The notes under the pieces are model-generated. The model made no database searches, was not told the DNA's origin, and saw only the letters and a list, made by a program, of their open reading frames with translations. The translations under genes were made by a program, and so were the position numbers. A stretch of 25,651 nt of DNA, from IMG/VR virus record IMGVR_UViG_3300037507_002873, positions 1 through 25,651 of that record; one strand, 5' to 3'. Positions 12,001-25,651 of this stretch are shown here, one piece after another; position 1 is the first letter of the stretch; each line of letters starts with the position of its first letter. This DNA comes from a virus.

Positions 12001-15000
12001 TTACTCGCTGTCGGGTTCTTTCATGTGCAACCACATTGCAGCGACAATGGCCAACACTGTTGATATTCCAGCAATTCGCTGAATAGTGCCAGACAAAGTT
12101 AAATAAACAACAAGTGAGCCAGCAAGCGTGAAGCCCATGTTAAATATTCCGTAAACGAACTTTTTGAAGAATGCTTTCCAGTTCATGACTTTTTCTCCGT
12201 CAACGTATTTGTAAATACTTATACTCTTTATCCAGTCCAGACCATCGCCGGCTATTTCGCCAGTAGGCTCAGATTCTTCCTCCCTATCCCGTCTAGTTGC
12301 TGTGTCTTGTCTTGTGCTCGGGGGTGTTCCTCCAGAACCTCCAGAACCTCCGGAAATCGGTGAGGCTGGACTGGCGAGGGCAAGGGAGGCAGCAGACGCT
12401 GCGAGGAGGCTGGCGGCCACTACGGTGCGACGCTGGCCAACGTCAATGGTTTGGTCGAGCATTTGATAGTTATCAAGGGCCCCCTCAAATATGTCCACAA
12501 CGTCCTCGAACACGTCTCTAATCGCTTCTGGAGCAGTCTGAGCGGCATCTACGATTTGGTCTGCCTGTTCCTCGCTTAACTCATCTACGGGAACCTGCTC
12601 GAAGATTGCCTCTGCTTGGCCCTCATCAATGCTTTCAAGAACCTTGGGGCTAGTTGCAAGTTCTGTTGCTTGACCTGACTCAATGCCGCCTTCCTGCTCT
12701 ATTACTAACGTGACGACTTGTCCAACCTGCTCGCTCGTAATTGTGTCTGATTCCAACACATCTACGATGACTCCGACTGATTCGGAGTCCAATTCATTAC
12801 CCAAAACAGCGGTGAAGGTTTCAATCAAAACTTCGGTGCTTACTTCTTCGTCAAAGACTGCGCCAAGAGCAGCGCCCAAATTCTCTGCGGTTAGACCGTC
12901 CTCCAATACATCAACGATAAGGTCAATGGTTTCTGCATCCGAGAGGTCACTATCAAACACGCTGTCAAAGATTGCTTCTGTCTCTGACATGCTCAGGTTT
13001 GTTTCAAGCAAGTCTCCAAGAACTGTCATGGTGTCCGCAACAGAGATGTCCTCGTCAAACACGGCTGCCATAACTGTGTTCAGGTCGCCAGAACTAAGCG
13101 GACCATCAAAGATTGATTCCAAAGCCGACACCATATTATCGGCAGAAGTATCTTCGGAGAATGCTGAATCCAAAACTGCCGTCAACTGTTCGCCGGTGAT
13201 GTCTGCATCCAGCATCGTCGTCAGTGCTTCAGTGAATACATCTGCCGAAACATCTTCGGTGAACACGGCTTCCAGGACATTGTCAAACTGAGTGTCGGTA
13301 AGTTCTGCGCCGAGGAGCGTGTCAAGAACAGCGCCAACCTCGTCAACAGTAATTTCGACGCCGACAGTGAATGCATCTTCAAGGATGTTGTCAAGTTCAA
13401 TCGTCCCAATTGACTCTCCCTCTTCTATTTCGGGGAGGGTATAATTGGTTTCCCATGATTCTTCTTCTTTTTCCTCTTCTGGGGACTGTTCTACTGGTGG
13501 GTATTGCCATTGTGTCCCGTTCCCATCAGGAAGAGGAATAGTTGTCACTGTTCCGCTTTCTTGTTCTTCCTCTGACTCTGGCAAAGTCATGGTTGTCTCT
13601 TCTTCAGGCTCTTCGTCGTCATCAGGAAGAGTCGTCGTCGGAATAACTACTGGCTCAACATAAACAGGAACAGGAATAGTTGTAGTAGTGGTGGTTGTAG
13701 TCGTAGTGGTAGTAGATGAAGTAGTTGTGGTTGCTTCAGTCGGGTCAAGAACAGTTGCATCAACAGTCACTTCTGGTCCGTACACGCACGGACCCACTCC
13801 TTCGTTGGAGAAACAACTCTGATTTCCCGCTTTGATACCGAAACGAACTGGTCCGTATCCAGTCGTTACAGGGTTGCTTCCGGAAAACATCCACTCGCCC
13901 AGTGAGTAATTGGTTCCCTGATTAGTCCACACACCCCAACCGCCTGACGTGGCTCCACCAATCACGGTTAGGTCATAAAAACTAACCGAGTAACCATAGA
14001 TGGCGGTATTGCTTGCCGCCGATGCATCCCAATCAAGGTCAACACTTCCGTCTGTGTTTGCAACAGCCGTCAAGTTTGTAACTGGATTTAGGTATGGAGC
14101 AACTGTTGTAGTGGTTGTAGTGGTACTCGTAGTAGTCGTGGTGCTCGTAGTACTCGTAGTTGTAGTTGTCTGAGGAACCGTAGTACTCGTAGTTGTAGTA
14201 GTGGGCGGAACCGTTGGAGCAGTTTCACTATTTGATGCAACTCCGCCAAATGCTGTACAGGTTCCAGAAATGCAACGCTCAGTGGAGCCAGCCTCGCTGT
14301 CAACCATCAGCGCTGGAGGTAAGCCTGTGTCGTCAAGGTTGAACGAAGCAAAACCAAGTTTGTATGTACCGCTTATGGAGACTTCGTATGTTGAAGTTTG
14401 CCAACCAGTAGCACCATAAGAATTCGTAGAGTAATCACCAGTTCCAGGATTGGTAAACCCAAGAAGTGCGTATTGCTCAACATAGTTGTTTACCGTTACT
14501 ACTGGCGTTCCAGTAACAGTCACGGGAACGAGTGAAGTTATGGAGCCATCGTTAAAAGGAACATAGTCAGTTCCGACGTAGTTCCAAGCCATTGTGTATG
14601 TCGTGCCTGCTGTCAGTTGCACCTCACGAGTTATCCATGCCGCGTCTGTCGGTGTACCTCCGCCATTGCCAGATGCTTGTGCCTGCGATGTAAGCATGTT
14701 TTTGATTTCTGTCACCGAGCCAGCCGAAAGACCTAAAGCACTTGCTGCTTGGTTAAAAGTCTGTTCGTTTTTGGGTTGAAGCAGAACAGCGTTTGTTCCG
14801 TTATTGGGGGAGAATGTCCAACTGCCAGAAGCAACTGCTGGTGCGTAGTACGGGCTAGAAGGACTTCCAACAGCACCCCTAGAACCGTGGGTAAAAGTTC
14901 GGGAACCAGCAAATATGGTTACACCACTACCGTTGCCAGTAATGGTGCTACCCAGTGTCCCAGACTGAGTTCCTTTATCCCAACCAGCAAAAGTTGCATC

Positions 15001-15126
15001 CTCAAAACCAGTATTAGGGATGGTGGCTGCTTGAACGGGCGAAGATAGGCCAATCAGCGCAATTAGAAGAGAAACTGGCCCAAGAATTCTGGACAGTGCT
15101 TTGCGGTGGTGGGAAAATGTAGACAT
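12001..15126 (-). CDS. Giant exported repeat protein with Thr-rich linkers and membrane anchor
   Basis: A 1041-residue protein from ATG 15126. Residues 1-33 are a signal peptide: basic start, hydrophobic core, and VQA before the cut. Residues 34-300 are beta-rich and resemble a carbohydrate-binding or adhesin module (PNTGFEDATFAGWD). Two Thr runs broken by Ser and Val-Pro (about 303-342 and 463-485) flank an FN3-like domain (about 345-455). An acidic Pro/Glu-rich part follows (about 490-575). Residues 597-800 hold twelve consecutive 17-residue units. A hydrophobic stretch at about 895-917 precedes a Gly/Ser/Pro-rich and charged linker. Two hydrophobic segments near 985-1035 probably anchor the C-terminus. 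Such linkers are typical of O-glycosylated surface proteins, including Acidimicrobiia ones. Two glycosyltransferase genes lie directly upstream. It could change the host envelope, block superinfection or decorate virions; none is shown. Confidence 0.85.
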   Translation of the reverse strand: MSTFSHHRKALSRILGPVSLLIALIGLSSPVQAATIPNTGFEDATFAGWDKGTQSGTLGSTITGNGSGVTIFAGSRTFTHGSRGAVGSPSSPYYAPAVASGSWTFSPNNGTNAVLLQPKNEQTFNQAASALGLSAGSVTEIKNMLTSQAQASGNGGGTPTDAAWITREVQLTAGTTYTMAWNYVGTDYVPFNDGSITSLVPVTVTGTPVVTVNNYVEQYALLGFTNPGTGDYSTNSYGATGWQTSTYEVSISGTYKLGFASFNLDDTGLPPALMVDSEAGSTERCISGTCTAFGGVASNSETAPTVPPTTTTTSTTVPQTTTTTSTTSTTTTTSTTTTTTTVAPYLNPVTNLTAVANTDGSVDLDWDASAASNTAIYGYSVSFYDLTVIGGATSGGWGVWTNQGTNYSLGEWMFSGSNPVTTGYGPVRFGIKAGNQSCFSNEGVGPCVYGPEVTVDATVLDPTEATTTTSSTTTTTTTTTTTTIPVPVYVEPVVIPTTTLPDDDEEPEEETTMTLPESEEEQESGTVTTIPLPDGNGTQWQYPPVEQSPEEEKEEESWETNYTLPEIEEGESIGTIELDNILEDAFTVGVEITVDEVGAVLDTLLGAELTDTQFDNVLEAVFTEDVSADVFTEALTTMLDADITGEQLTAVLDSAFSEDTSADNMVSALESIFDGPLSSGDLNTVMAAVFDEDISVADTMTVLGDLLETNLSMSETEAIFDSVFDSDLSDAETIDLIVDVLEDGLTAENLGAALGAVFDEEVSTEVLIETFTAVLGNELDSESVGVIVDVLESDTITSEQVGQVVTLVIEQEGGIESGQATELATSPKVLESIDEGQAEAIFEQVPVDELSEEQADQIVDAAQTAPEAIRDVFEDVVDIFEGALDNYQMLDQTIDVGQRRTVVAASLLAASAASLALASPASPISGGSGGSGGTPPSTRQDTATRRDREEESEPTGEIAGDGLDWIKSISIYKYVDGEKVMNWKAFFKKFVYGIFNMGFTLAGSLVVYLTLSGTIQRIAGISTVLAIVAAMWLHMKEPDSE
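12727..13338 (-). repeat. Twelve tandem 51-bp (17-residue) coding repeats
   Basis: Residues 597-800 of the giant protein split into twelve units of exactly 17 residues with no insertions. Examples are VGAVLDTLLGAELTDTQ, FDNVLEAVFTEDVSADV, FTEALTTMLDADITGEQ and LGAALGAVFDEEVSTEV. The pattern is about nine helix-like residues with V/A-L at positions 4-5 and I/V/A-F/L at 8-9, then an acidic turn ending in D/E-x-S/T. Even units tend to carry F-x-E/D-D/E, so the true period may be 34 residues. The DNA has diverged, so the repeats are old or under protein-level selection. Confidence 0.85.
13670..13736 (-). repeat. Thr-codon microsatellite, linker 2
   Basis: A run of ACN triplets (mostly ACT and ACA on the coding strand) encodes about 20 nearly uninterrupted Thr residues in the giant exported protein. 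Any slippage by whole triplets keeps the frame, so linker length may vary between relatives. Confidence 0.8.
14097..14217 (-). repeat. Thr-codon microsatellite, linker 1
   Basis: A longer ACN-triplet tract encodes roughly 40 residues of Thr, interrupted by Ser, Val-Pro and Gln. It separates the N-terminal beta-rich module from the FN3-like domain. Short identical DNA units (ACTACGAGT-like) recur within it, pointing to past slippage or unequal exchange. Confidence 0.8.
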
Positions 15127-15175: not shown

Positions 15176-15200
15176 AACCTGTATAGCCAAACTACAGGTT
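15176..15200 (-). terminator. Possible terminator after the second glycosyltransferase
   Basis: AACCTGTA and TACAGGTT are perfect eight-base arms around a nine-base loop, followed on the minus strand by TTGGG. The stop codon of the glycosyltransferase at 15192 lies inside. The U tract is too short for a strong intrinsic terminator, so partial readthrough into the giant-protein gene is possible. Confidence 0.45.
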
Positions 15201-16286
15201 GATTATTTCCGAAAACACAGAAATCCATTCCGGACCAGTTTTTGACATTGTAAATTCCTTATCAATAATTCTTTTTATTTTGCGTGACTCTTCTTCTCTG
15301 ACTTTAAATTGTTGAAGTTCGTCAAAGTGACTCATCCAATCAGCATCAGATACAGCAACTCTACCGACGCCCATGGAGGCAAGGTATTCATACTCGGGCA
15401 AAGCAGATGCAACAAATGGAATTCCAGAAGCAGCGTACTCCACCCCCTTGATAAAGGATTTTGCTCTGTTGAAGGGTATGTCGTTAAGCGGAACTATGCC
15501 GATGTCAAAATTTTTATGCGCTTGCTGCATTTCAAAAAGAGGAACCATTCCGCTGACATCGCACAATTTCGAGTCAATACCAAGTCTCAAATACGCTGCG
15601 GGCGCCCACGGCAAGTTACCTGCGTGATGAAACCTTATACCGTTTTTCACCAGATACGAATTTAAAAATGGCTGCATTACCTCAAGGTCCATCGACCTCC
15701 AAGGTGTAGCCCCAAGCCAACCAATTACCGGTGCCCTTTTTATTGCTTTTAACCTCTGGAAAGAATTATCTTGTATTGCGTTCCTCACCATGAATATTGG
15801 CTTGGAAGGATATTTTGCTGTGAAGTAGTCGCGAATAAAAGGAGTTGAGCAAATAAGCGCATCGGAGATTTTGATTATCTCTGAATATATTTCTCTATTG
15901 TTATGTTTGTTTGATTTTGAAGAAGACGACTGATACGCAAGATTTGCTGTGTGCAGTTCGTCATATAAGTCATCTATGTCAACAACTATTTTTTGCCCAA
16001 GTGATTGCGCTTTTGGAATCCCTTCTAGTACATCGAGAGACATGATTACCTTCAAAACAATTACGTTGTTTTTTCGCGAAAAACTTCCGTTTAGTCTTTT
16101 GACGGTGAACTCTCCACTTGGCTTTATGGACAAAAATCCAAAAGACGATGCGATTCCCGCAAGGTTCAACTGTTGCGACGGAAGTATTGAGCGATACCAT
16201 GTGCAGCCGTTTGGCACATACTGTTCGTCAACAATGGACCAATCAAGGGAGACAAATCCAACATTTGCCTTGGAAAAAATATTCAT
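15192..16286 (-). CDS. GT-B fold glycosyltransferase, copy 2
   Basis: A 364-residue protein whose ATG directly follows the stop of its upstream paralogue (TAAATG). It has the two-domain GT-B shape of GT4-like enzymes. The N-terminal half contains VPNGCTWYRSILPSQQL and the conserved VVDIDD (101-106). The second domain begins near PVIGWLGATPWR (186-197). It carries DIGIVPLNDIPFNRAKS (261-277) and then KGVEYAASGIPFVAS (280-294), the donor-sugar binding region where GT4 enzymes have an E-x7-E element. It would transfer a sugar from an activated donor; neither donor nor acceptor can be read from sequence. No signal peptide or membrane segment is seen, so it acts in the cytoplasm. It lies just before the Thr-rich exported protein, a plausible acceptor. 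Confidence 0.85.
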   Translation of the reverse strand: MNIFSKANVGFVSLDWSIVDEQYVPNGCTWYRSILPSQQLNLAGIASSFGFLSIKPSGEFTVKRLNGSFSRKNNVIVLKVIMSLDVLEGIPKAQSLGQKIVVDIDDLYDELHTANLAYQSSSSKSNKHNNREIYSEIIKISDALICSTPFIRDYFTAKYPSKPIFMVRNAIQDNSFQRLKAIKRAPVIGWLGATPWRSMDLEVMQPFLNSYLVKNGIRFHHAGNLPWAPAAYLRLGIDSKLCDVSGMVPLFEMQQAHKNFDIGIVPLNDIPFNRAKSFIKGVEYAASGIPFVASALPEYEYLASMGVGRVAVSDADWMSHFDELQQFKVREEESRKIKRIIDKEFTMSKTGPEWISVFSEIINL

Positions 16287-17390
16287 TTATTTAATGTCCA
16301 TAATGTTTGCAAATGTCGTTTCCCATTCTTTTGCCATTACGTCAATAGAAAATTTTTCTCTAAGTATCTCTTGAGAAACTTCAACTTCATCATTTCTCAT
16401 GTTGTGATTGAGTAACTCATCAAAATGATAAACCCAATCTGACTCAGAATAGGCTACTCGGCCAATGCCATTTTGTGCAAGGACTTCGTACTCCGGGGAG
16501 TAGGAGGCGACAAAAGGTATCCCTGCTGCGGCATATTCTAGCCCTTTTAAATATGATTTTGCGTGATTGAAGGGAATGTTGTTTAGCGGGACGATGCCGA
16601 TATCAATTTCCTTGAAGAGTTCTGGAAGGTTGAGTATCGGAATCATTCCCTGCTTTGTGTGTCTATTTTTTGGCACTCCAAGAAGTTCTGATGCTTGTGA
16701 AGCATTCTCCACATGTCCGGAATGATGAAAAGTTAAATTGTTCCGAATCAAATAGTTACCGAAAAAACCACTTAGTTGTTCTAGGTCATTGCCCCTCCAT
16801 GGCGTTGCCCCAACCCAGCCAATAACCGGTTTTTTAAACAAGTGTTTTTTCTTTTTCCACCTATCTAAATCAATCCCGTTCCTCACCATAAATATTGGTT
16901 TAGAGGGATGTTTTTTTCTGTAATGTTCATAAAGAAAAGGAGTTGAGCAAATGAGCGCATGCGCCCGCTCAATTATAGAAAAGTAAATATCTCTGTTGTT
17001 TTCTTTATTCAATTCTGGGTGAGTAGTTGTAAACGCCCTGTTCGATTCCGGAAGTCCCTCAAACCAGTCATCAATATCCACGACAATTTTTTGTCCGCTT
17101 GATTCCGCTCTTTCAATTGCGGTCAAGTTGGATATGTGCATCGCAAGTTTGAATACAATTATCTTGAAGCCACTTGCCAAACCTTCATTATCGTAAAGGG
17201 GCTTTTTTATGTGTATCCCCATATCGCCGTTCGTTGATGAGGCGATTGTGCCAACAAAGGCAGCGTGACCTTTTTTGTTAAGTTCTTTTGCCGGGAGGAC
17301 ACACCTATACCAAGTGCACCCGTTGGGTATGAGTAATTCCCCAATCCGAGACCAGTCCTGAGAAGCAAATCCAACAGAAAACTTATGCAC
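16287..17390 (-). CDS. GT-B fold glycosyltransferase, copy 1
   Basis: A 367-residue protein when started at GTG 17390 (VHKFSVGFASQDWSRIGE). The frame is open for another 103 codons, but that part lies antisense to a plus-strand gene and does not align to the paralogue, so it is rejected. A GTG two codons earlier (17396) is an alternative. It shares with the next gene IPNGCTWYRCVLPAKEL, GQKIVVDIDDWFEGL, KPIFMVRNGID, VIGWVGATPWRGNDLEQL, DIGIVPLNNIPFNHAKSYLK and GLEYAAAGIPFVAS. The pair clearly arose by duplication. It is the first gene of the unit glycosyltransferase, glycosyltransferase, giant surface protein. TAGACT ends seven bases before the GTG and no Shine-Dalgarno is obvious, so it may be leaderless. 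Confidence 0.85.
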   Translation of the reverse strand: MHKFSVGFASQDWSRIGELLIPNGCTWYRCVLPAKELNKKGHAAFVGTIASSTNGDMGIHIKKPLYDNEGLASGFKIIVFKLAMHISNLTAIERAESSGQKIVVDIDDWFEGLPESNRAFTTTHPELNKENNRDIYFSIIERAHALICSTPFLYEHYRKKHPSKPIFMVRNGIDLDRWKKKKHLFKKPVIGWVGATPWRGNDLEQLSGFFGNYLIRNNLTFHHSGHVENASQASELLGVPKNRHTKQGMIPILNLPELFKEIDIGIVPLNNIPFNHAKSYLKGLEYAAAGIPFVASYSPEYEVLAQNGIGRVAYSESDWVYHFDELLNHNMRNDEVEVSQEILREKFSIDVMAKEWETTFANIMDIK

Positions 17391-17454
17391 ACTCACGAGT
17401 CTACTATGAATATACTTGTAGAATTCTATTGCAACCCTCTGTAGAAAGAAAAAT
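17391..17454. promoter_or_regulatory. Divergent intergenic region between glycosyltransferases and zinc-ribbon gene
   Basis: These 64 bases must hold the signals for both directions. For the minus strand, TAGACT (17398-17403) lies seven bases before the GTG, and TTGCAA with TATTCA at 16-base spacing is an alternative pair. For the plus strand, TAGAAT (near 17419) and a weak GAAAG ribosome site are seen, without a clear -35. Confidence 0.4.
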
Positions 17455-17679
17455 ATGAGCGCTTGGCAGGAATATAAAAAGAAACTTGGTGAAACTCGGC
17501 CGTGGGATACCCTCAACCCAGAAAACCATACAGACGAAAACACCGCTCGTAAACGTATGAACATTTGCGAGGTTTGCCCACGTCTCGTGCAAGCCACCAA
17601 ACAGTGCAAGGAGTGCGGCTGCTTTATGGTTCTCAAAACAAAACTCACTAACGCCGTATGTCCAATAGGTAAATGGTGA
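17455..17679 (+). CDS. Small four-Cys zinc-ribbon-like protein
   Basis: A 74-residue protein and one of only two genes seen on the plus strand. It has CEVC at 38-41, CKEC at 50-53, Cys56, and Cys69 near the end. The run ICEVCPRLVQATKQCKECGC then FMVLKTKL and CPIGKW is a pattern I recall from small uncharacterised proteins of cyanophages and other aquatic phages. CPxC and CxxCGC pairs suggest a zinc ribbon; the function is unknown. It lies between two minus-strand genes, divergent from one and convergent with the other. That pattern is typical of independently acquired phage accessory genes. A GAAAG stretch before the ATG is a weak ribosome site. The recalled similarity makes it more likely a real gene than antisense noise. 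Confidence 0.75.
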   Translation: MSAWQEYKKKLGETRPWDTLNPENHTDENTARKRMNICEVCPRLVQATKQCKECGCFMVLKTKLTNAVCPIGKW

Positions 17680-17690
17680 AGCCCATCACC
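17675..17690 (+). terminator. Weak hairpin over the zinc-ribbon stop codon
   Basis: GGTGA and TCACC flank a six-base loop and include the TGA stop. No clear U tract follows, though an A/T-rich stretch begins about 40 bases later. It may help separate the convergent transcripts. Confidence 0.25.
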
Positions 17691-17762
17691 TTCTGACATT
17701 GAGTTGCTACGAAGAATTTGCTGGATTAGATTTTACAACAAAAAAATAAATAATTAACAAAA

Positions 17763-18641
17763 CTATTCTTTACGCAGCCAATAACAAAGTTCCCATCCAC
17801 CGTCAATGTACTCATCACCTATGCGCTGTGGTGCATTTACCGACGAACTGCCTATTTCCCCAATTGGAATGTGCCGATGCTCAAGGTTTTTATTCGCAAG
17901 TCTGGCCGCGTCCTCCCTGAGATTTTTCACCCACTTGATTGAATCAAGTTCGGCTGTTTCGTGAACCGAAGAGGGCGTTGACTCATTTCTGCCTTGTGCG
18001 AACCAAGACAAATAGGCATAACGCACACCCTGGGTAACGGGGTTTACGCTGTGACAACCAGCATAAGAGGATGGATACATAAGAATGTCTCCAATTTTTG
18101 GCTTAAATTCAATGCCCCAAGGCGCATAAGAGAGTTCCCCTCCAGAATAATCTTCGTTAAGAACGACCGCAGCGGTGACGGTATTCGATAGAGGGAAAGA
18201 CGAAAGAGGGGTTACGTTGTCTTCACCATATGGCAAATCGCAGTCTGAGTGTGGTCCGATTCCCTGACCATTTTCATATCTAATGAAATAACCTCTAGTC
18301 CTCCAACGAATTGAATTAATCACTACGGGGAATAGCACCGCGTACTGAACAATGCTTTTATAGAGAGCGTCTTCTAGTAAAAGAATAAAATCAATATGCT
18401 TCTGAGGCATTCCTTCGTAAAGGTAATTGTTGTACCTTATTGGTGCAGATTGAATATCGTCTTCAGAGTATTCGTATAAACCGTTGTTTAGTTTTGCATC
18501 CTTTGATTTTGGCGATTCCGTGTAACCCTGCGGCAATGTATTTTTTTCAATTCCCTCCATCACCTCTTTGAATAAATCTTGATTTATTAAAGATGGGTTC
18601 CCAAACTGAACAATTCCAGAGCCATGATGATAAATGTTCAT
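17763..18641 (-). CDS. Fe(II)/2-oxoglutarate dioxygenase A
   Basis: A 292-residue protein. A TTG two codons upstream is possible, but ATG 18641 overlaps the preceding stop as TAATG and is the better start. The double-stranded beta-helix core shows the iron-binding H-x-D in GIGPHSDCD (His131, Asp133). It also shows the distal His197 in GCHSVNPV and Arg207 in GVRYAYLSWF for the 2-oxoglutarate carboxylate. YSGGELSYAPWGIEFKP and GDILMYPSSY are typical prolyl-4-hydroxylase-like core strands. The enzyme would hydroxylate a protein or small-molecule substrate using O2 and 2-oxoglutarate. It is the last of three dioxygenase genes in an overlapping run (20420-17763). The active-site set is complete, so it should be active; the substrate is unknown. 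Confidence 0.87.
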   Translation of the reverse strand: MNIYHHGSGIVQFGNPSLINQDLFKEVMEGIEKNTLPQGYTESPKSKDAKLNNGLYEYSEDDIQSAPIRYNNYLYEGMPQKHIDFILLLEDALYKSIVQYAVLFPVVINSIRWRTRGYFIRYENGQGIGPHSDCDLPYGEDNVTPLSSFPLSNTVTAAVVLNEDYSGGELSYAPWGIEFKPKIGDILMYPSSYAGCHSVNPVTQGVRYAYLSWFAQGRNESTPSSVHETAELDSIKWVKNLREDAARLANKNLEHRHIPIGEIGSSSVNAPQRIGDEYIDGGWELCYWLRKE

Positions 18642-19516
18642 TACCAAATCCTTGATACAAGTGTGTGTAGGTGCGAACTTCCAGACGGGTCTTTTTTGTT
18701 GGCGAGAGCCAAGACATCCTCACGAAGCGAAGGCATGTATACGTTCGTAGCCGAAGTGTTAACCGAAGGGTCAACAACATATTCGCCAACTGATTGATTC
18801 GGCGTTCCGTGTGCATACCAGCCCAAATACGAATACCTGTGACCGCCAGTAACTGTTTTCACTTCGTGAGCAGCAACGTAGTTAGATGGGAACATCAATA
18901 TGTCGCCCTTTTGGGGCTTGTAAGTTATGTTCAGATAATTGAAATGGTGATGACCACCAGTAAAGTTCTTGCCGTTCAGTTCCTCTTCCGTATCAACGCA
19001 ATCGTTGAGATAAATCAAACACGAAACACTGTTCCTCGTAGCCAACTGCTGTTTGGGGTGGTCAAACCCATATGCGTAGTCAGCGCTCGTGTCGCCATGA
19101 ATCCCTAAGTACAGCCCACCCTTAGTAGGCGAATAGGAAACAAAGTGACCCTTTACTTTCCACCAAACGACCTTGTACGCCAACGGATACTCCCAAAAAT
19201 AATGAAGCAGGCATTCATCTTTTGCTGATTCAAGTGCGTTGAGTAAATTGACAACGGTTTCATCCTGTGATTGATGCGCTACCGAACACCTACGAGGCAT
19301 GTCGCCCGCTGAGTCCTCTGAAAAAATGTAGTCGCTTTTGTTCGAAAGAATATTTTCGCCGGTTTCTGGGTCAATATCTGGTTTGTACATTGACGGAGAA
19401 TCAAGGTCTACGAGAACTTCTGCAATATTGAATACCGAATCCCAATCCAATGAGACCGCGTTCTTGAATAAAACTACGCCTCCGCCAAGATTTTCTATTG
19501 AACAATTTTTATTCAT
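18641..19516 (-). CDS. Fe(II)/2-oxoglutarate dioxygenase B
   Basis: A 291-residue protein. A longer frame starts 23 codons earlier, but ATG 19516 has an AGGGGTG ribosome site seven bases upstream and fits the N-termini of its paralogues (NLGGGVVLFKNAVSLDWD). Iron ligands are His140 and Asp142 in LGIHGDTSAD and His217 in AAHEVKTV; Arg227 in HRYSYLGWY holds 2-oxoglutarate. The core again has GDILMFPSNY. Unlike its relatives it has GGHHHFNY in place of SGGELFFPY, which may alter the substrate pocket. Its start overlaps the end of dioxygenase C by eight bases and its stop overlaps the start of A by one base. The three genes should therefore be translated as one unit. Confidence 0.87.
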   Translation of the reverse strand: MNKNCSIENLGGGVVLFKNAVSLDWDSVFNIAEVLVDLDSPSMYKPDIDPETGENILSNKSDYIFSEDSAGDMPRRCSVAHQSQDETVVNLLNALESAKDECLLHYFWEYPLAYKVVWWKVKGHFVSYSPTKGGLYLGIHGDTSADYAYGFDHPKQQLATRNSVSCLIYLNDCVDTEEELNGKNFTGGHHHFNYLNITYKPQKGDILMFPSNYVAAHEVKTVTGGHRYSYLGWYAHGTPNQSVGEYVVDPSVNTSATNVYMPSLREDVLALANKKDPSGSSHLHTLVSRIW

Positions 19517-20420
19517 TGACGGCACCCCTGTTTTGCGGTAAATGATGCTTTGTGCTTGAACTGTGATTTTGATTAAGAACCCCACCCATAAAAGACATCA
19601 AGTCACTTGAGGAATGTTTATCCTTGATGTAGGAAACATAATCATCAACAATAGTTGGTAGCCAAACCTGACTTTGCTTGCCTACTGGAACGGGCCGTCC
19701 TGGCTGTATGCCTCTTTCGCTATCGGCTGAACCATGAGAAAAATAAGAAATGTAAACATATCTTTCTCCGCTCAAGCATGGTTTCACCTGATGGGTGCCT
19801 AGGTAGTTTGATGGGAATATGAGTAGGTCACCAGATTTGGGCTGGTGCACGGCGTTGGCATATATGAATTCAATTTCTCCACCGCTGTATTCGTGTTTGC
19901 CCAACTCTTTCTTGTCCCCTACGGATGAATTTAAATACAACAATGCGCTCAATACGTGCCTTGTGGCAAGTTGCAAATCTGGTTCAAAACCAACTTGATA
20001 ATTTACTTCGTTGTCGTTGTGTAAGCCCAGGCCACTTCCTGCACCGTAGGCGGCGACATGACCAGTTTCCATCCACCATATATTTGAAAGAACACGTGGA
20101 TACATTTCTATGTACATCAAAAGATGATTATAGATAGTTCTTTCACATTCTTGAAAAAATGCAACTAATTCTTTGGGGCTTTCGTCATCAATGAAGTCCA
20201 TTATGCGTCCAGCGCTTTTTTGTATTTCGTCAATTTCGTATCTGTGACCGCTTCTGTTTACGGCGTAAGGCTCCGAGCCATCCTCGTGAACAATCGTGTA
20301 GCCATCCCTAATTGCTTTTTCTTTCAGTGCAGAGAAATACGGAACAACCAAATCCTGGTTGACTTCTATGGACTTTGGAAAACAGACAATTCCCATTCCG
20401 TAATTTGTTGGTGCTTTCAT
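19509..20420 (-). CDS. Fe(II)/2-oxoglutarate dioxygenase C
   Basis: A 303-residue protein from ATG 20420; the open frame continues two codons to a TTG, but that would erase the promoter spacing. Iron ligands are His134 and Asp136 in LGLHNDNEVNY and His210 in GTHQVKPC; Arg220 in ERYVYISYF is the co-substrate anchor. N-terminal IVCFPKSIEVNQDLVVPYF matches ISFPKAFEVNQEQLLPW of dioxygenase D, so the similarity covers the whole protein and not just the core. It is the first gene of the three-dioxygenase run. TAGTAT ends six bases before its start and there is no Shine-Dalgarno, suggesting a leaderless transcript begins here. Confidence 0.88.
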   Translation of the reverse strand: MKAPTNYGMGIVCFPKSIEVNQDLVVPYFSALKEKAIRDGYTIVHEDGSEPYAVNRSGHRYEIDEIQKSAGRIMDFIDDESPKELVAFFQECERTIYNHLLMYIEMYPRVLSNIWWMETGHVAAYGAGSGLGLHNDNEVNYQVGFEPDLQLATRHVLSALLYLNSSVGDKKELGKHEYSGGEIEFIYANAVHQPKSGDLLIFPSNYLGTHQVKPCLSGERYVYISYFSHGSADSERGIQPGRPVPVGKQSQVWLPTIVDDYVSYIKDKHSSSDLMSFMGGVLNQNHSSSTKHHLPQNRGAVNE

Positions 20421-20453
20421 ACACAAATACTATATGGGCATAGACCCACATAG
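20421..20453 (-). promoter_or_regulatory. Leaderless -10 and overlapping hairpin before dioxygenase C
   Basis: TAGTAT (20427-20432) stands six bases before the ATG, but no good -35 is seen. A hairpin (20430-20453: CTAT and TGGG arms joined by one G-U pair, six-base loop) overlaps the -10. It lies eight bases after the methyltransferase-like stop, so it may end that transcript while the next promoter starts a new one. Confidence 0.45.
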
Positions 20454-20460
20454 CGAGAAT

Positions 20461-21213
20461 CTAGTTCTTTACAAAAACTGAAGTTCCCAAGAATTGTGCA
20501 AAATGGTAAGAAACCCCTGGCAAATTTTTGAGCGCTTCATGTGCGTCGTAATATGGGTGCCAGCGGTAGGAGGATGAATATATCGATGATGACTCGTTTG
20601 TGCCAGCAATAACAAGAATCCCGCCCGAAGCCAAATTGTTGACCAATGAATTGAGATATTCCTCATCAAGCATAATATCCCAAGCATAAGCATGAGCCAC
20701 AATCATTTCAAATTTATTATCCACCTCGGAAAGTAGTTCGGATTTATCATAAACCGAATAACCAAAAGAACTGTTTGCGTAAACATTTTTTAGATTTTTT
20801 TCAAATAGAAAAAGGCTGGCGTCGTTGACAAAATTTATGCTTGTGTCTTTTAGGCCATCAAAAACATTTTCTGGTGACATAAAAAAATAAGTCATCGGGC
20901 TACTGCATGCCCCAACAAACAATATTGATTTAGGTTTTTTGGTGTGAAGCAAAAAATTCTCTACTAACATTTGAGGGACAAACATGCCATACCACATCTC
21001 ATCAGTCATCTGTTTTCTAAGTTGAAATGCTGTTGCAACAGTGTGCATGCCCAAAGCGTTGTGGGTCAAATCGACATTTGCTTCAAGCAAAGTGTTCCAA
21101 TACTTAGTTGAAGTTTCCTCTACATTCGCCTTGTATTCTTCCGAGATTAGCGAACTACCAGATGAAGAAAGTTGCGTGCTCACCATTCCTGTTAGGATGA
21201 CTTCTGGTTTCAT
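20461..21213 (-). CDS. Class I SAM-dependent methyltransferase-like protein
   Basis: A 250-residue protein whose ATG overlaps the preceding stop as ATGA. A Rossmann-like region starts near residue 95. SILFVGACSSPMTYFF (96-111) sits at motif I, though it is not the usual GxGxG. INFVND (126-131) gives the acidic end of strand 2, FEMIVAHAYAWDIML (168-182) is at motif IV, and LASGGILVIAG (194-204) is at motif V/VI. The first 90 residues are helical and probably form a cap or dimer part. The acceptor is unknown; no DNA-methylase DPPY or NPPF motif is present. That argues for protein, sugar or small-molecule methylation. It sits directly upstream of the three-dioxygenase run, so methylation and hydroxylation may act on one product. 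The degenerate motif I lowers certainty. Confidence 0.65.
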   Translation of the reverse strand: MKPEVILTGMVSTQLSSSGSSLISEEYKANVEETSTKYWNTLLEANVDLTHNALGMHTVATAFQLRKQMTDEMWYGMFVPQMLVENFLLHTKKPKSILFVGACSSPMTYFFMSPENVFDGLKDTSINFVNDASLFLFEKNLKNVYANSSFGYSVYDKSELLSEVDNKFEMIVAHAYAWDIMLDEEYLNSLVNNLASGGILVIAGTNESSSIYSSSYRWHPYYDAHEALKNLPGVSYHFAQFLGTSVFVKN

Positions 21214-21512
21214 AGTTGTTCCCCGTATTTAGATATTTTTAAGTATAAAAAATCGTTTCTCAGTTTGTGTACCAAACTCTTGTACTTTCCATAAACAAAT
21301 GGATGTGCGGGGTTTTTTCCAAACATGGAATTTTTCACTAAAAATGTTTCCATTAAGGCAGTAATAATTTCTTCAAGTTCATAATTTTCAAAGTTGGCAG
21401 GGTCAAGACCGACAACAAAAAGAATTTGAGCAATGTCTTGCCACAAATCGACAATATGTTGGTCTGCGTCAAAAAGTTTTTCTGATGAATTTGCAGTACA
21501 GGACCTTGGCAT
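21210..21512 (-). CDS. Hypothetical protein, 100 residues
   Basis: It starts at ATG 21512 with a GGAG site eight bases upstream and overlaps the methyltransferase-like gene by four bases. I recognise no family. It appears mostly helical (VDLWQDIAQILFVVGL, LEEIITALMETFLVKN, KYKSLVHKLRNDFLYLKISKYG) and has no signal peptide or clear membrane segment. It is fourth in a run of small genes that ends with the methyltransferase, so a partner role is possible, on adjacency only. Confidence 0.7.
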   Translation of the reverse strand: MPRSCTANSSEKLFDADQHIVDLWQDIAQILFVVGLDPANFENYELEEIITALMETFLVKNSMFGKNPAHPFVYGKYKSLVHKLRNDFLYLKISKYGEQL

Positions 21513-21516
21513 ATTT

Positions 21517-21705
21517 TTACTCCTCTCCCGCTAGGAAACCGTCACCGACACCGCAATTCATCATTTGACCGTTTTTAAATTCCCACTGTCGCGTGTTTGG
21601 ATTAAATCGAGCAACATTGTTATCGTAATCGTCAAACTTAAACACAACTGGTTTTTCTTGTTGTGCTTCAATTATCCCAAATGGAACAAAAGGTTTTGGA
21701 ATCAT
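21517..21705 (-). CDS. Hypothetical protein, 62 residues
   Basis: A small protein from ATG 21705, two bases after the stop before it, so translation is probably coupled. It starts MIPKPFVPFGIIEAQQEKPV and continues with short strand-like pieces (VVFKFDDYDNNVARFNP, RQWEFKNGQ). No family recognised. The tight fit between two other small genes is the main support that it is real. Confidence 0.6.
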   Translation of the reverse strand: MIPKPFVPFGIIEAQQEKPVVFKFDDYDNNVARFNPNTRQWEFKNGQMMNCGVGDGFLAGEE

Positions 21706-21707
21706 GT

Positions 21708-21923
21708 CTAAGAGCCAGAAATCAAAACGTAATTGGCGACTTGACGCTTGAGTGATTCATGAGCGGCATACTCAGAATGCCCTTCTGTAAAGTCATGGTC
21801 GTAAGACTCATCGATTGTGGAGACGTCAACACCAAGCGAAAAACAAAGAACGCCGATTGAGTACTCAAGAAGTTCTTTTGCTTCTTGTTTTGCGTTGGCG
21901 AGTTGGGCTTCTGAAAGATTCAT
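21708..21923 (-). CDS. Hypothetical protein, 71 residues
   Basis: It starts at ATG 21923, immediately after the stop of its upstream neighbour. It looks helical (LSEAQLANAKQEAKELLEYSIGVLCFSLG), then has an acidic stretch with His (DESYDHDFTEGHSEYAAHE). Its LEYSIGVLCFSLGVDVSTID faintly resembles IVAQETEIFGVLLRQGVDVDAFD of the gene before it, so the two may be distant relatives. Function unknown. Confidence 0.65.
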   Translation of the reverse strand: MNLSEAQLANAKQEAKELLEYSIGVLCFSLGVDVSTIDESYDHDFTEGHSEYAAHESLKRQVANYVLISGS

Positions 21924-22160
21924 TTATTTCTCAAGTTTTTCTAAGCGTGATTTAAGGGATGCAATTAATCCAATTTTTTCCTTTACGTCAAGTTGCCATT
22001 GCGGAGCATCGGCAGACGGAGAAAAAGCGTTTTCATCAAAAGCATCAACGTCCACCCCTTGGCGAAGCAAAACGCCAAAAATTTCGGTTTCTTGCGCCAC
22101 GATTGCCTCTTGCACAAGGCGCTTTTGAGTCACTCTGTCAATATTTGCGCTGATTTTCAT
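21924..22160 (-). CDS. Hypothetical protein, 78 residues
   Basis: First gene of the small-gene run, starting at ATG 22160 with an AAAGG site about seven bases upstream. It has an N-terminal helical part (RVTQKRLVQEAIVAQETEIFG), an acidic-aliphatic middle (GVDVDAFDENAF) and a C-terminal amphipathic helix (LIASLKSRLEKLEK) that could form a short coiled coil. No family recognised. The 78-base gap before it holds TATTAT near 22197 but no matching -35. Confidence 0.65.
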   Translation of the reverse strand: MKISANIDRVTQKRLVQEAIVAQETEIFGVLLRQGVDVDAFDENAFSPSADAPQWQLDVKEKIGLIASLKSRLEKLEK

Positions 22161-22238
22161 TTTTTGCCTTTACTTTGTCTTGTCGTACTGTATCCAATAA
22201 TAGCACGCCGCTACCCAAATGGGGAAAGGCGAAAGCCC

Positions 22239-23270
22239 TTATAGGGACTGTACTTTTCCTCGTTTATTATTGGCATCAAACACGTCCTTGTGCCTGTATG
22301 GCTGCTTCAAACCTTCTTCACCTTCAAGCGACCTATTCTGGAAGATGGGATTTGTATTACTGCTTAAATCATGCTGGTCTTTGCCGTATTCTTCAATCAG
22401 ACAATATTTTTTGTAATCGTCGTAAATGTTCTCTAGCCAATGGGGTTCACACCACGCCTTGACCGTGTCCACATCGAATACCTCTACGAGCACATTGCGG
22501 TCGCTGCTTCCTTGAGCATAGAAAGTTAAATACCCGTATCGATTGCCTTCCTTGACAATTTTAACGCCGTGCGTAGCAATAAAGTTGCATGGAAAAACAA
22601 CTATGTCTCCCGCTTTTGCTTGGTATTCAACCCCCAGGTAAGGGAAAAATAACTCGCCTCCTGAATACTGATTCTCGCCGACCGAACCCTCGTCTACGCA
22701 GTCGTTGAAATACGCCATGATTGCGATTGTCTGACGCGCACCTAGTTGGCCTTTTGGTATGTACTTCTTTCCCTTCTGTGCCCTAAAATTGGTGTCATTG
22801 TCATTGTGCACTCCCAAGTAGTTGCCGGTTGAGTATCGCAAAGCATGTCCCCTTGTTCTCCACCAGAGAGTCGGTAGAACCATGGGGTATTCATGTATGT
22901 ATTTAATTACGCATTTGTAAATTGAATCCTCAAGATATCTAAAGTAATCAACCATGCTCTGTTCAGTTTTATCGTCAACCACCTGAAGCACCCTCTTCGG
23001 CACCTCATTCATCTGTTCCAAGGAGAATTTGTTGCCATCTTCGTTAACGGCGTATTTTTGTCCTGATAAGTCGTAGTCAAATTTCCATCTTTGCTCATTC
23101 GCGTTTTGCCCCTCTTTGTCAATCCACGGAAGCAACTGTTCTTGATTTACCTCAAAAGCCTTAGGAAATGAGATTACGCCTCCACCAAGTTTGACCATGT
23201 CCATGGCCATAATTTCACTAACCGACTGGTCGTCAATTACTGGATAGTGACCAAAGTATCTATCGTCCAT
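22239..23270 (-). CDS. Fe(II)/2-oxoglutarate dioxygenase D
   Basis: A 343-residue protein and the longest of the five dioxygenases. Iron ligands are His155 and Asp157 in LGVHNDNDTNF and His234 in ATHGVKIV; Arg244 in NRYGYLTFY is the 2-oxoglutarate anchor. SGGELFFPYLGVEYQAKAGD gives typical core strands. Residues 127-150 (YPMVLPTLWWRTRGHALRYS) match the same region in A, B and C, showing common descent. A C-terminal tail of about 80 residues (after 265, WLENIYDDYKKY...) is charged; A, B and C have tails too, but shorter. The ATG at 23270 has no Shine-Dalgarno; a very good promoter with the -10 six bases away lies in the end of the preceding gene. It probably starts its own leaderless transcript. 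Confidence 0.88.
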   Translation of the reverse strand: MDDRYFGHYPVIDDQSVSEIMAMDMVKLGGGVISFPKAFEVNQEQLLPWIDKEGQNANEQRWKFDYDLSGQKYAVNEDGNKFSLEQMNEVPKRVLQVVDDKTEQSMVDYFRYLEDSIYKCVIKYIHEYPMVLPTLWWRTRGHALRYSTGNYLGVHNDNDTNFRAQKGKKYIPKGQLGARQTIAIMAYFNDCVDEGSVGENQYSGGELFFPYLGVEYQAKAGDIVVFPCNFIATHGVKIVKEGNRYGYLTFYAQGSSDRNVLVEVFDVDTVKAWCEPHWLENIYDDYKKYCLIEEYGKDQHDLSSNTNPIFQNRSLEGEEGLKQPYRHKDVFDANNKRGKVQSL

Positions 23271-23305
23271 GGAGCGATTATACCACTACTGATTTGGAAC
23301 GGCAA
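23271..23305 (-). promoter_or_regulatory. Consensus promoter for dioxygenase D, predicted leaderless
   Basis: TTGCCG (23300-23305), a 17-base spacer, a perfect TATAAT (23277-23282), six bases, then ATG. The -35 lies inside the last codons of the DUF6065-like gene. This is the best promoter match in the window. Confidence 0.75.
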
Positions 23306-23993
23306 TTACTGGGAGCCCTGTGAATGATGGCCCAATAACGTTTCCGTCAGCATCAAGACCTGTTTTGATTCCTTTTGCCCATGTCCACGGTTTCTCGGTG
23401 TTGATTTTTGTCTTGAGTTGGTCGTACTTCATTCTTTGCTCCATAAGTTCTTTGTCATCCCATAAATTGCCTACGGAAACACTGACATCAAGCATCACCG
23501 TGTTTTCATATACGTTAAAAAAACAAAACGGGTCACCTGCCCTAAATGTTACTGGCGTGCCGATTTTATTTATCTTCCAATTCATTTGAACCTCATCTGG
23601 CCACCAAAATGTGGGAACAGTTGCCGAAAGAGCCTGCGCATCTTCTTTGATGAAATTTGGTGAACCAGAAAACCAAGTGCTGTAATTATCCTCTGTCCTG
23701 ATAACCCATCCCATGGCGAAAGACACCATTCCTATGATTGAACAATGAACTTGTTTGAATCCATTTTTTGAGAATTCGCCAGACAGGATTTTTGGGACAT
23801 GGTTGCCGCCATCCCACTGCACAACAACATCTTCGCTTAGTACTAGTTCCCAACCCAAAACATTAGCGACTGACATAGGCATGCACTGATAGGCATGCTT
23901 TTTGTAAGTTTCATCCATCCAATCTCTTTTAATTCTTGATTGCCTGATTTCAGGAGGAGTTTGTGTCGTCTTAACAAATTGGACATGCGTCAT
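23286..23993 (-). CDS. DUF6065-like protein
   Basis: A 235-residue protein whose ATG overlaps the preceding dioxygenase stop as ATGA, so the two are co-translated. The order RDWMDETYKKHAYQCMPMSVANVLGWEL, then VVQWDGG, FAMGWVIRTEDNY, WFSGSPNFIKED, TFWWPDEVQMNWKI and FRAGDPFCFFNVY matches my memory of DUF6065. That is a family of unknown function in bacteria and phages, with AYxCxPxxIANxxGWE and MNWK motifs. No 2-oxoglutarate or SAM motif is present. The beta-rich, Trp-rich make-up suggests a binding or cupin-like fold, which is inference. Its pairing with a dioxygenase suggests they work on the same substrate. Confidence 0.72.
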   Translation of the reverse strand: MTHVQFVKTTQTPPEIRQSRIKRDWMDETYKKHAYQCMPMSVANVLGWELVLSEDVVVQWDGGNHVPKILSGEFSKNGFKQVHCSIIGMVSFAMGWVIRTEDNYSTWFSGSPNFIKEDAQALSATVPTFWWPDEVQMNWKINKIGTPVTFRAGDPFCFFNVYENTVMLDVSVSVGNLWDDKELMEQRMKYDQLKTKINTEKPWTWAKGIKTGLDADGNVIGPSFTGLPVIAVPNQ

Positions 23994-24679
23994 GCAGATG
24001 TACTGACTCCACGTGTTGCTGCAGTTGGTGAGTATAAATGAACCTGATTGTGGTTCTTATCGTTGTAGTCAAACATCGTCACCGCCGAGTATTTTAGCCC
24101 ACTTTGTACCGGTAGGGCCGCGTGTGCGAATATGAAAGTTGAAGGGAAGAAGACGATGTCGCCTGCCTCGGGTTTAAACTTCAAATCAAAATACGGGAAA
24201 AACAGTTCCCCACCTTCATAGTCGTCATTGAGATACATGATTGACGATATGGTGCAGGTGTAGGAAAAGCCGTGGTCGGTATGCGTTTGAAAGTGTTGCT
24301 TAGGTCCATACTTGACGTAATTGATTGCTTCCATGTAATCCATTTTTACGTTGTACATTGATTCGTAGTGTCGCAAGCAAGGCGTCAGTCTTTCGGTTGT
24401 ATCTGACCAAATAGCCTTTATTTCAGAAAACTCATTGGGTGCCTGATTTGCAAGGTCTTCGCTAATTTTGCAGTCAAAGCAGTCTCTGTATTCGGGCATT
24501 TTTTGCTCGTGCCCAACGAGGGCCTCCATCCACATGTAGGGCGGTGTCGCGCTTGCGCCTATCGTATCTTCTAGGCGTTCCACTAAGCGCAATTCTTTGG
24601 GAAGCATATTCCTGTAGACCATCATCGCAAAACGAGGGTCCCCCAGGTATTCGCATGAAACATTAACTGCCGAGTTCAT
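23990..24679 (-). CDS. Fe(II)/2-oxoglutarate dioxygenase E (prolyl-4-hydroxylase-like)
   Basis: A 229-residue protein with an AGAAAGG ribosome site before ATG 24679. It is shorter than A-D and belongs to a different branch. Iron ligands are His133 and Asp135 in FQTHTDHG and His186 in FAHAALPV. The co-substrate anchor is Lys196 (GLKYSAVTMF), as in true prolyl-4-hydroxylases, where A-D have Arg. YLNDDYEGGELFFPYFDLKF and GDIVFFPSTFIFAH are standard P4H core strands. Its likely reaction is hydroxylation of a proline or similar residue. It is the first gene of the minus-strand block and diverges from the peroxidase-like gene across 49 bases. Confidence 0.9.
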   Translation of the reverse strand: MNSAVNVSCEYLGDPRFAMMVYRNMLPKELRLVERLEDTIGASATPPYMWMEALVGHEQKMPEYRDCFDCKISEDLANQAPNEFSEIKAIWSDTTERLTPCLRHYESMYNVKMDYMEAINYVKYGPKQHFQTHTDHGFSYTCTISSIMYLNDDYEGGELFFPYFDLKFKPEAGDIVFFPSTFIFAHAALPVQSGLKYSAVTMFDYNDKNHNQVHLYSPTAATRGVSTSA

Positions 24680-24728: not shown

Positions 24729-25592
24729 ATGAGCGTAAAGTCTATTTCCAGAACAATTGAAACCCTACCGTTGTCTATTTACGACATAAAAATCAAGTCC
24801 GCCGACGGGAAAAACGACGATGTGCTGGCCGACGCAAAGGGTAAGGTGACCCTCCTATTCAACGTCGCTGCAGGCTGTGGGAATATCCCCCAACACGGCG
24901 TAATTGAGCAACTTCATCAAATGTACAAAGGAAACCCTGATTTTACAATTTTGGCTGTGGTCGTTGACGACTTTGTTTGCCACGGATATGAACAGTTTCA
25001 GGGAGGGCTTGCCTCGTATGCCGAAAAAAATGCCCTACACCTCACACCAGGTCAAGTGGCAAAAGATTATGCTCAAACACATTTTGGTGCAACATATGAG
25101 TTCACCGAATTGACAAACGGTCGCTACGATAAGCACTCATACAGCGAAGACTTTGTGCCCAATACTCAAAAACTTCAGGACATTCATGAACTGTGGTTTT
25201 ACCTGACAAGATGCCATGAAGCAGACTTTCAGGAAAATGGAACTCCGTATAGTGATGAATTTATCCCATGGGCAAAGGTAAAGGCTTCGAAACCGGAAGA
25301 CAAAAAAGGCATGTGTAATTTGACGGGAAATTTTACAAAGTTCTTGATTGACAAAACAGGAACACAATATATGCGATACCACAACGGGTTTCTCCTTGGT
25401 GAACGTAGTCAACACGGAGAGTTTTTCCCGTGGTGGCACGGCGAAGGTTTGGAAAAACTTAAAGAGGAATTAGGGGAAAAAGAGTTCTTTGAGTGGACAA
25501 ATGCCCCATATCCAAGCAGGTTGCAGCAAAAAGGCATTGACGAATCCCTAAGGATAATCAAAGACGATATTGATTACATGTTGAACATGTAA
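24729..25592 (+). CDS. Glutathione-peroxidase-like thioredoxin-fold protein
   Basis: A 287-residue protein on the plus strand. LLFNVAAGCGNIPQHGVIEQL (residues 42-62) matches the active-site strand and helix of glutathione peroxidases (NVASxCGxTxQ), with Cys50 as the peroxidatic residue. NFTKFLIDKTGTQYMRY (201-217) matches their late strand. In the catalytic tetrad, Asn201 is kept but the Trp before it is Gly200. The FPCNQFG loop appears as VDDFVCHGYEQFQGG, so the Gln is uncertain. An insert of about 60 residues (130-190) and a C-terminal part after 230 make it about 100 residues longer than usual. It may reduce peroxides or act as a thiol oxidoreductase. Near five iron enzymes a protective role is attractive but unproven. 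Confidence 0.72.
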   Translation: MSVKSISRTIETLPLSIYDIKIKSADGKNDDVLADAKGKVTLLFNVAAGCGNIPQHGVIEQLHQMYKGNPDFTILAVVVDDFVCHGYEQFQGGLASYAEKNALHLTPGQVAKDYAQTHFGATYEFTELTNGRYDKHSYSEDFVPNTQKLQDIHELWFYLTRCHEADFQENGTPYSDEFIPWAKVKASKPEDKKGMCNLTGNFTKFLIDKTGTQYMRYHNGFLLGERSQHGEFFPWWHGEGLEKLKEELGEKEFFEWTNAPYPSRLQQKGIDESLRIIKDDIDYMLNM

Positions 25593-25651
25593 TCACTTAA
25601 TAAGAAACAACCTATTTCTATTCGGAATCGGTATCAAGGAATCCTTATTGT
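25593..25651 (+). other. Region after the peroxidase-like gene, with imperfect inverted repeats
   Basis: AGAAA and TTTCT around 25604-25618 can pair, and AATAAG with CTTATT frames the segment to the window edge. Either could form a terminator, but no clean stem with U tract is seen before the sequence ends. Confidence 0.25.

Follow-up and report, generated by a model that had tools for sequence, protein, structure and literature searches.

Which molecule do the clustered dioxygenases of this virus modify? The window, that is, the whole stretch of 25,651 bp that was analysed, is IMG/VR record IMGVR_UViG_3300037507_002873 in full. It carries tailed-phage genes (tape measure, tail genes, a VanY endolysin and an SNF2-type helicase) and, on the minus strand at 15192-24679, a cassette of enzyme genes. 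A reading made from the letters alone (hereafter the sequence-only reading) had placed there two glycosyltransferases, five Fe(II)/2-oxoglutarate (2OG) dioxygenases, a methyltransferase-like protein and a DUF6065 protein, and we found all of them (Table 1). It had seen in them a possible hydroxylation, glycosylation and methylation cassette directed at an exported Thr/Pro-rich neighbour. A cassette for protein hydroxylation and glycosylation is still the best reading, while the exported target had to be given up. The gene that does accompany the enzymes lies upstream, outside the window, and encodes a (PP[FYH]F)n repeat protein. We favour, at a probability of about 0.68, a post-translational modification module for a hydroxyproline-rich appendage of the virion tail.

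The window edge falls inside the module, and the missing part was found in contig L013, which shares 11,142 bp with the window (blastn, 99.99% identity) and then extends past this edge. There, directly downstream of a tail-fibre gene, L013 encodes a 162-aa protein with an fn3 domain and then a C-terminal (PP[F/Y]F)n run starting PPYFPPFFPPFFPPFF. The same arrangement of an fn3-PPxF gene with a tail-fibre gene upstream recurs in most relatives with sufficient flank, and in the cases tested the upstream gene matched tail-fibre families. The proline-repeat gene is therefore linked to the cassette in the same phage and across relatives. The variable x of the PPxF unit is F, Y or H in about 95%. 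Since adjacent units differ at 38% of the third positions of fixed codons, the repeats do not come from fresh DNA slippage; positions 1 and 2 of the PPxF codons were invariant by search design and were given no weight, the third position alone being informative.

The linkage was then measured from the repeat side. For this, IMG/VR was scanned blindly with a DNA pattern for PP[FYHL]F repeats, the enzymes not being consulted. At least 119 loci were obtained, a sample to whose 119 listed members the following counts refer; repeat open reading frames (ORFs) were read stop to stop, and 112 loci contain one. By profile, 2OG genes were present in 86/119 loci, with three or more in 48 and a density of 3.02 per 10 kb, and DUF6065 was present in 58/119. 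Of the 77 loci that extend 2 kb or more beyond the repeat on its downstream side, 66 have a 2OG gene there; where in addition the repeat stood at the C-terminus, this rose to 30/31, with a median gap of about 300 bp. Dereplication left 2OG genes in 76 and DUF6065 in 54 of 102 clusters. In random control loci, 2OG genes were found in 1/120 (14-base pattern; 0.01 per 10 kb) and 0/16 (15-base pattern). Loci with collagen-like GxP repeats had 2OG genes in 5/120 cases (0.06 per 10 kb). DUF6065 was detected in none of the random (120 and 16) or GxP (120) control loci. With control loci treated as independent, Fisher's test gave p values of about 1e-35 against random and 3e-30 against GxP loci. Collagen-like GxP repeats were consequently rejected as a general 2OG partner. 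A single GxP locus out of the 120, L419, has three 2OG genes; the same principle may be realised there with collagen.

Aquatic phages have many 2OG genes, which makes a comparison with random loci potentially misleading by itself, and linkage was therefore also measured within genomes. There, 54 of 62 PF13640 genes lay at most 15 kb from a repeat, versus 17.4 expected under uniform placement, in eight long repeat-bearing records; some of these are mutually related, hence the count is given without a p-value. Scans were also made from the enzyme side. Starting from DUF6065, a PPxF-type repeat ORF was found in the fetched flank of 39/59 loci, and about 16 of the 20 loci lacking one begin inside the cassette. 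The OGb dioxygenase family occupies 305 stretches of IMG/VR; among the best 80 of these relatives, DUF6065 was present in 68 and PPxF within the fetched flank in 39. Where full 20-kb flanks were available, PPxF occurred in the flank in 15/32 loci and elsewhere in the record in 14 of the other 17, a total of 29/32. One of the three exceptions (G325) is a record cut close to the module, and the other two (L573 and L576) are one phage type, to which we return below.

The cassette itself is conserved. Scanned with DUF6065, IMG/VR yielded 57 loci (28-100% identity), most of which keep the order OGe-DUF6065-(small ORFs)-MT-OGc-OGb-OGa, where MT stands for the methyltransferase-like gene; this recurrence makes the cassette more than chance. 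Arrays of 5-12 dioxygenase paralogues were seen in these bacterial viruses. Further genes occur in relatives. Among dioxygenases, L051 has a TauD and L103 shows a weak sign of PhyH; GSHPx-like and NAD-binding proteins are also encoded, as is, in part of the relatives, a glycosyltransferase of family PF11397.

All five dioxygenases of the window are intact PF13640 proteins over the Pfam cut-off (E 1.7e-7 to 1.5e-12), and the HxD...H metal triad is invariant or nearly so in all five paralogue-family alignments. The 2OG-binding Arg/Lys about 10 residues beyond the last His is also present in all five, as Arg, invariant or nearly so, in OGa to OGd. Invariant residues are H133, D135, H199 and R209 in OGa, H163, D165, H240 and R250 in OGb, D138 and H212 in OGc (with H136 and R222 nearly so), H155, D157, H234 and R244 in OGd (alignment A6), and H133, D135 and H186 in OGe, whose 2OG-binding position is K/R and Lys in the window's protein. 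In a phmmer search of the PDB, OGe matched the Bacillus anthracis prolyl 4-hydroxylase (P4H; 3ITQ/5HV0, 7e-8) and that of the chlorovirus PBCV-1 (5C5T, 0.017). Its family profile matched the same two enzymes (9e-18 and 2e-8), human prolyl 3-hydroxylase 1 (P3H1; 4e-14), PKHD hydroxylases, human P4HA2, a Chlamydomonas P4H, LH3 and PHD2. Judged by sequence comparison, the closest solved relatives of OGe are thus prolyl 4- and 3-hydroxylases, the chlorovirus enzyme included. The OGa profile matched a PKHD hydroxylase (4e-10) and P3H1 (5e-7). Of the three families compared with the PDB (OGa, OGb and OGe), OGa and OGe thus show kinship to solved prolyl hydroxylases.

These relationships bear on two other explanations. 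The enzymes might act on a non-protein target (a host surface glycan, a lipid or a small metabolite) or on phage DNA, the repeat gene merely sharing a late tail-side cargo slot. PKHD and TauD-like members do have small-molecule substrates in other organisms, and the slot ahead of the exported protein is a variable cargo site, which in L069, L070 and L104 instead holds a sugar cassette (family 2 glycosyltransferases, an epimerase, HAD/nucleotidyltransferase-like and methyltransferase genes). Yet the nearest relatives of OGe are peptidyl-prolyl hydroxylases, and DNA hypermodification of the TET/JBP type was rejected, the Tet_JBP profile (PF12851) matching only OGa, at E 0.06 and 13 bits against a cut-off of 34.9. 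A mere cargo slot is also disfavoured by the 30/31 C-terminal PPxF repeats that co-occur with 2OG genes, and we consider this explanation unlikely. In the other, the enzymes or a partner would dock on the PPxF arm, a polyproline scaffold that stays unmodified itself. Polyproline segments are common docking ligands, and the same linkage data speak for this scaffold; against it, sequences of this kind are what relatives of prolyl hydroxylases would naturally modify, and the arm is carried by an fn3 protein encoded beside tail fibres. We hold a pure docking role to be decidedly improbable.

For the exported protein, the sequence-only reading had envisaged that the 2OG enzymes and glycosyltransferases turn it into a secreted mucin-like glycoprotein, and had proposed searching related phages for co-occurrence. 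The protein is real, with a signal peptide and Thr/Pro linkers by inspection; it is adjacent to the cassette in the window, and GT1 and GT2 directly adjoin its gene. An IMG/VR scan with it gave 40 loci, many of them with holin/endolysin genes alongside and no 2OG gene. Its homologues were absent from the cassette-bearing 86-106 kb records G004, G310, G313, G315, G316 and G317, and the 98-kb record G009 presents the reverse situation, with the exported protein and just one distant PF13640 match. Most DUF6065 loci lacked it in the fetched flank, where it was found only in those nearest the window. Enzymes and exported protein were thus each found without the other, and the co-occurrence that a mucin-like system on this protein calls for was not observed, so that the proposed substrate failed the check named along with it. 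Since the protein is missing from several cassette records and nearly alone in G009, it is not an obligate substrate; it was rejected as the substrate of the cassette on co-occurrence, and we regard the mucin-like product as highly improbable. GT2-like genes occur near the exported protein, with no 2OG gene, in L069, L070, L074 and L090; because of this and of their position, GT1 and GT2 of the window may be partners of the exported protein instead of the dioxygenases. The exported protein has a C-terminal hydrophobic segment of holin-like look and lies near holin/endolysin genes in L095-L102 among others, a hint that it may function in lysis or at the envelope. In L065, L071, L072, L076, L079 and L087, a minus-strand PPxF (or PPSF) gene stands by DUF6171, 2OG genes and the exported protein, and these phages may thus have two PPxF units.

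Table 1. Features of the window and, in the last two rows, of the overlapping contig L013
Feature	Position	Strand	Evidence or remark
OGe, P4H-like 2OG-Fe(II) dioxygenase, cassette gene 1	23990..24679	-	PF13640 1.5e-12; phrog_61 1e-25
DUF6065 protein, cassette marker	23286..23993	-	PF19541 5e-44
OGd, 2OG-Fe(II) dioxygenase	22239..23270	-	PF13640 1.7e-7
Small ORFs h78, h71, h62, h100	21210..22160	-	Order kept in near relatives L006-L013
Methyltransferase-like protein	20461..21213	-	Methyltransf_31 0.043; fold match
OGc, 2OG-Fe(II) dioxygenase	19509..20426	-	PF13640 1.3e-10
OGb, 2OG-Fe(II) dioxygenase	18641..19585	-	PF13640 9e-11
OGa, PKHD/P3H-like 2OG-Fe(II) dioxygenase	17763..18647	-	PF13640 5e-9
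DUF6171 small Cys4 protein	17455..17679	+	PF19668 1.8e-7
GT2, GT4-like glycosyltransferase, start corrected	16287..17459	-	phrog_7162 1.7e-31; Glyco_transf_4 2.9e-5, below cut-off
GT1, GT4-like glycosyltransferase	15192..16286	-	phrog_7162 7e-30
GSHPx-like protein	24729..25592	+	GSHPx 4e-6, just below cut-off
Exported Thr/Pro-rich protein, judged outside core system	12001..15126	-	Decoupled from cassette
Contig end, 59 bp beyond GSHPx-like gene	25593..25651	-	Module runs on in L013
fn3-PPYF-repeat gene, 162 aa	L013 4964-5452, about 2.9 kb past window edge		fn3 E 5e-5, just under cut-off
Tail-fibre gene	L013 1412-4960		Directly upstream of fn3-PPYF gene

The other cassette genes were less easily placed. 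Both glycosyltransferases match phrog_7162, and the Pfam GT4 matches of both are below cut-off. The sequence-only reading was right about the GT2 gene and wrong about its start, which lies near 17459 instead of 17699, because the plus-strand DUF6171 gene fills that interval. PF11397, which from its Pfam name and general family knowledge we take to be the Skp1 GlcNAc-transferase family, matched in L006, L010, L028, L213, L237 and L249 (E down to 1e-38), with L007 in the same cluster; a profile built from these cassette proteins had no match in any control locus. The AlphaFold (AF2) model of the methyltransferase-like protein (pLDDT 78) resembles cation-dependent O-methyltransferases of the caffeoyl-CoA/catechol type (E 2e-7, TM about 0.55); its sequence match is weak, and a clear GxGxG motif for S-adenosylmethionine binding was not seen. 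Pfam searches with h78, h71, h62 and h100 gave no match. GSHPx-like homologues recur in cassettes, 74 of them, from 54 loci, forming one cluster. Some have another residue at the peroxidatic Cys position, for example 'NISSKAGY' in L010, and since this Cys appears replaced they are probably not all peroxidases. The DUF6171 gene, on the opposite strand within the cassette, recurs alongside such cassettes; other contigs have it close to PPxF genes and to the gene of the exported protein. Near the PPxF gene, a 241-aa protein (L013 5480-6205; L010 782) has a 'YFLHIPRTSGRA' start that recalls sulfotransferases, and its Pfam search gave no match.

For DUF6065, the AlphaFold (AF2) model (pLDDT 85.6) had dUTPases as all of its top 50 PDB fold matches (E 5e-5 to 4e-4, probability 1.00), and the predicted fold is dUTPase-like (beta-clip). 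By inspection, dUTPase catalytic motifs such as GVID..YRG were not visible in alignment A1, and for this reason we do not file DUF6065 as a dUTPase; as a guess, it could be a beta-clip protein that binds a peptide or a sugar. A literature search on DUF6065 gave no result. The family is over cut-off in 17 of 299 Pseudomonadota genomes (about 6%), Caulobacter included. In the 14 bacterial regions read (L130-L143), it stands alone among housekeeping genes, which on inspection resemble those for YbaK, thioredoxin and LON-domain proteins; no 2OG gene was seen linked to it, and this context was dropped as a guide to function. The dUTPase-like fold of the bacterial members is carried over from the phage family.

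How could these proteins work together? From the genes and their linkage we infer catalysis, substrate, virion location, order of steps and purpose as follows. Late in infection, expression of the tail-fibre gene would coincide with that of the fn3-PPxF gene and of the enzymes. The small fn3-domain protein would offer a C-terminal PP[F/Y/H]F arm, likely an extended polyproline-type rod, whose prolines, and perhaps other residues, would be hydroxylated in the cytoplasm, before assembly, by several P4H/P3H/PKHD-like dioxygenases. So many paralogues suggest that the work is divided among them, either by position or by the type of chemistry. Glycosyltransferases, the methyltransferase-like protein and other enzymes, where present, would then tailor the hydroxyls, and the modified rod may make the tail tip stiffer, shield it or direct it to other targets. 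Tail decoration had been among the alternatives of the sequence-only reading.

Several observations weigh against a modified tail rod. Hydroxylation is deduced from the genes, active sites, gene order and repeat-gene linkage that we observed, and the repeat gene lies outside the window itself. The phage type of L573/L576 has the cassette and no strict PPxF repeats; in the L576 record, a tail-fibre-like gene just upstream has a short collagen-like stretch, GPAGPTGATGPTGPTGATG. The OGb family profile found no significant relative in the PDB, and with prolyl-hydroxylase kinship seen for OGe and OGa among the three families compared, that all five enzymes share one substrate type is a guess. The window's glycosyltransferases are not PF11397, which is limited to a minority of loci, and DUF6065 and the methyltransferase-like protein lack a definite step in the proposed scheme. 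Finally, a note cited in PMC7019647 has it that no hydroxyproline was found in PBCV-1 virions.

Prolyl hydroxylation, hydroxyproline glycosylation and one viral P4H are already known. The viral enzyme, that of PBCV-1 (5C5T), is related to OGe by profile and reportedly acts on proline-rich repeats; however, it is a single enzyme of an alga virus, whereas here 5-12 paralogues occur with DUF6065 and a PPxF tail-region gene in bacterial viruses. The title of Eriksson 1999 (cited in PMC9301287 and PMC7019647) speaks of viral peptide substrates for it. Plant and algal hydroxyproline-rich glycoproteins (extensins, mastigonemes; PMC11015965) likewise combine a proline-repeat rod, P4H and glycosyltransferases, and the Chlamydomonas P4H is related to OGe, but they are made in the secretory pathway for the cell wall with SPPPP motifs, in contrast to PP-aromatic-F in a phage particle and the bacterial cytoplasm. 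In Dictyostelium, the cytoplasmic P4H PhyA makes hydroxyproline on Skp1, which Gnt1, a GlcNAc-transferase, then glycosylates (PMC3515798), as PF11397 in cassette relatives recalls; that pathway concerns one proline of one protein in oxygen sensing, and the window has GT4-like enzymes. Cyanophage 2OG-Fe(II) oxygenases (phrog_61, phrog_81) belong to the same superfamily and lie 3' of tail-fibre genes in Synechococcus phage S-T4, whereas neither DUF6065 nor the tested fn3-PPxF protein had a match among 50,697 cultured phage records, where 2OG matches were only distant. EGLN3-like and prolyl-hydroxylase-like structures are widespread in marine phages according to a structure survey, which in the part seen names no substrate (PMC12774648). 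Among open-licence PMC papers, we found no description of phage 2OG arrays paired with PP-aromatic-F proteins.

Altogether, we lean towards a widespread and undescribed virion-modification system, in which a dioxygenase array and a repurposed dUTPase-fold DUF6065 protein serve a hydroxyproline-rich, possibly glycosylated or methylated PP-aromatic-F tail rod, and it may well merit being classed as a separate category. A linked, testable substrate family with strong controls can now be named for the prolyl-hydroxylase-like enzymes of aquatic viruses. If the reading is true, the purpose of their abundant 'prolyl hydroxylase' genes would be the remodelling of their own tails, and bacterial viruses would make hydroxyproline-rich adhesins or stiff rods by a chemistry best known from eukaryotes. 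The quality of the phage particle would then be tied to oxygen, iron and 2-oxoglutarate, and such cassettes would provide compact enzyme sets for the modification of polyproline materials.

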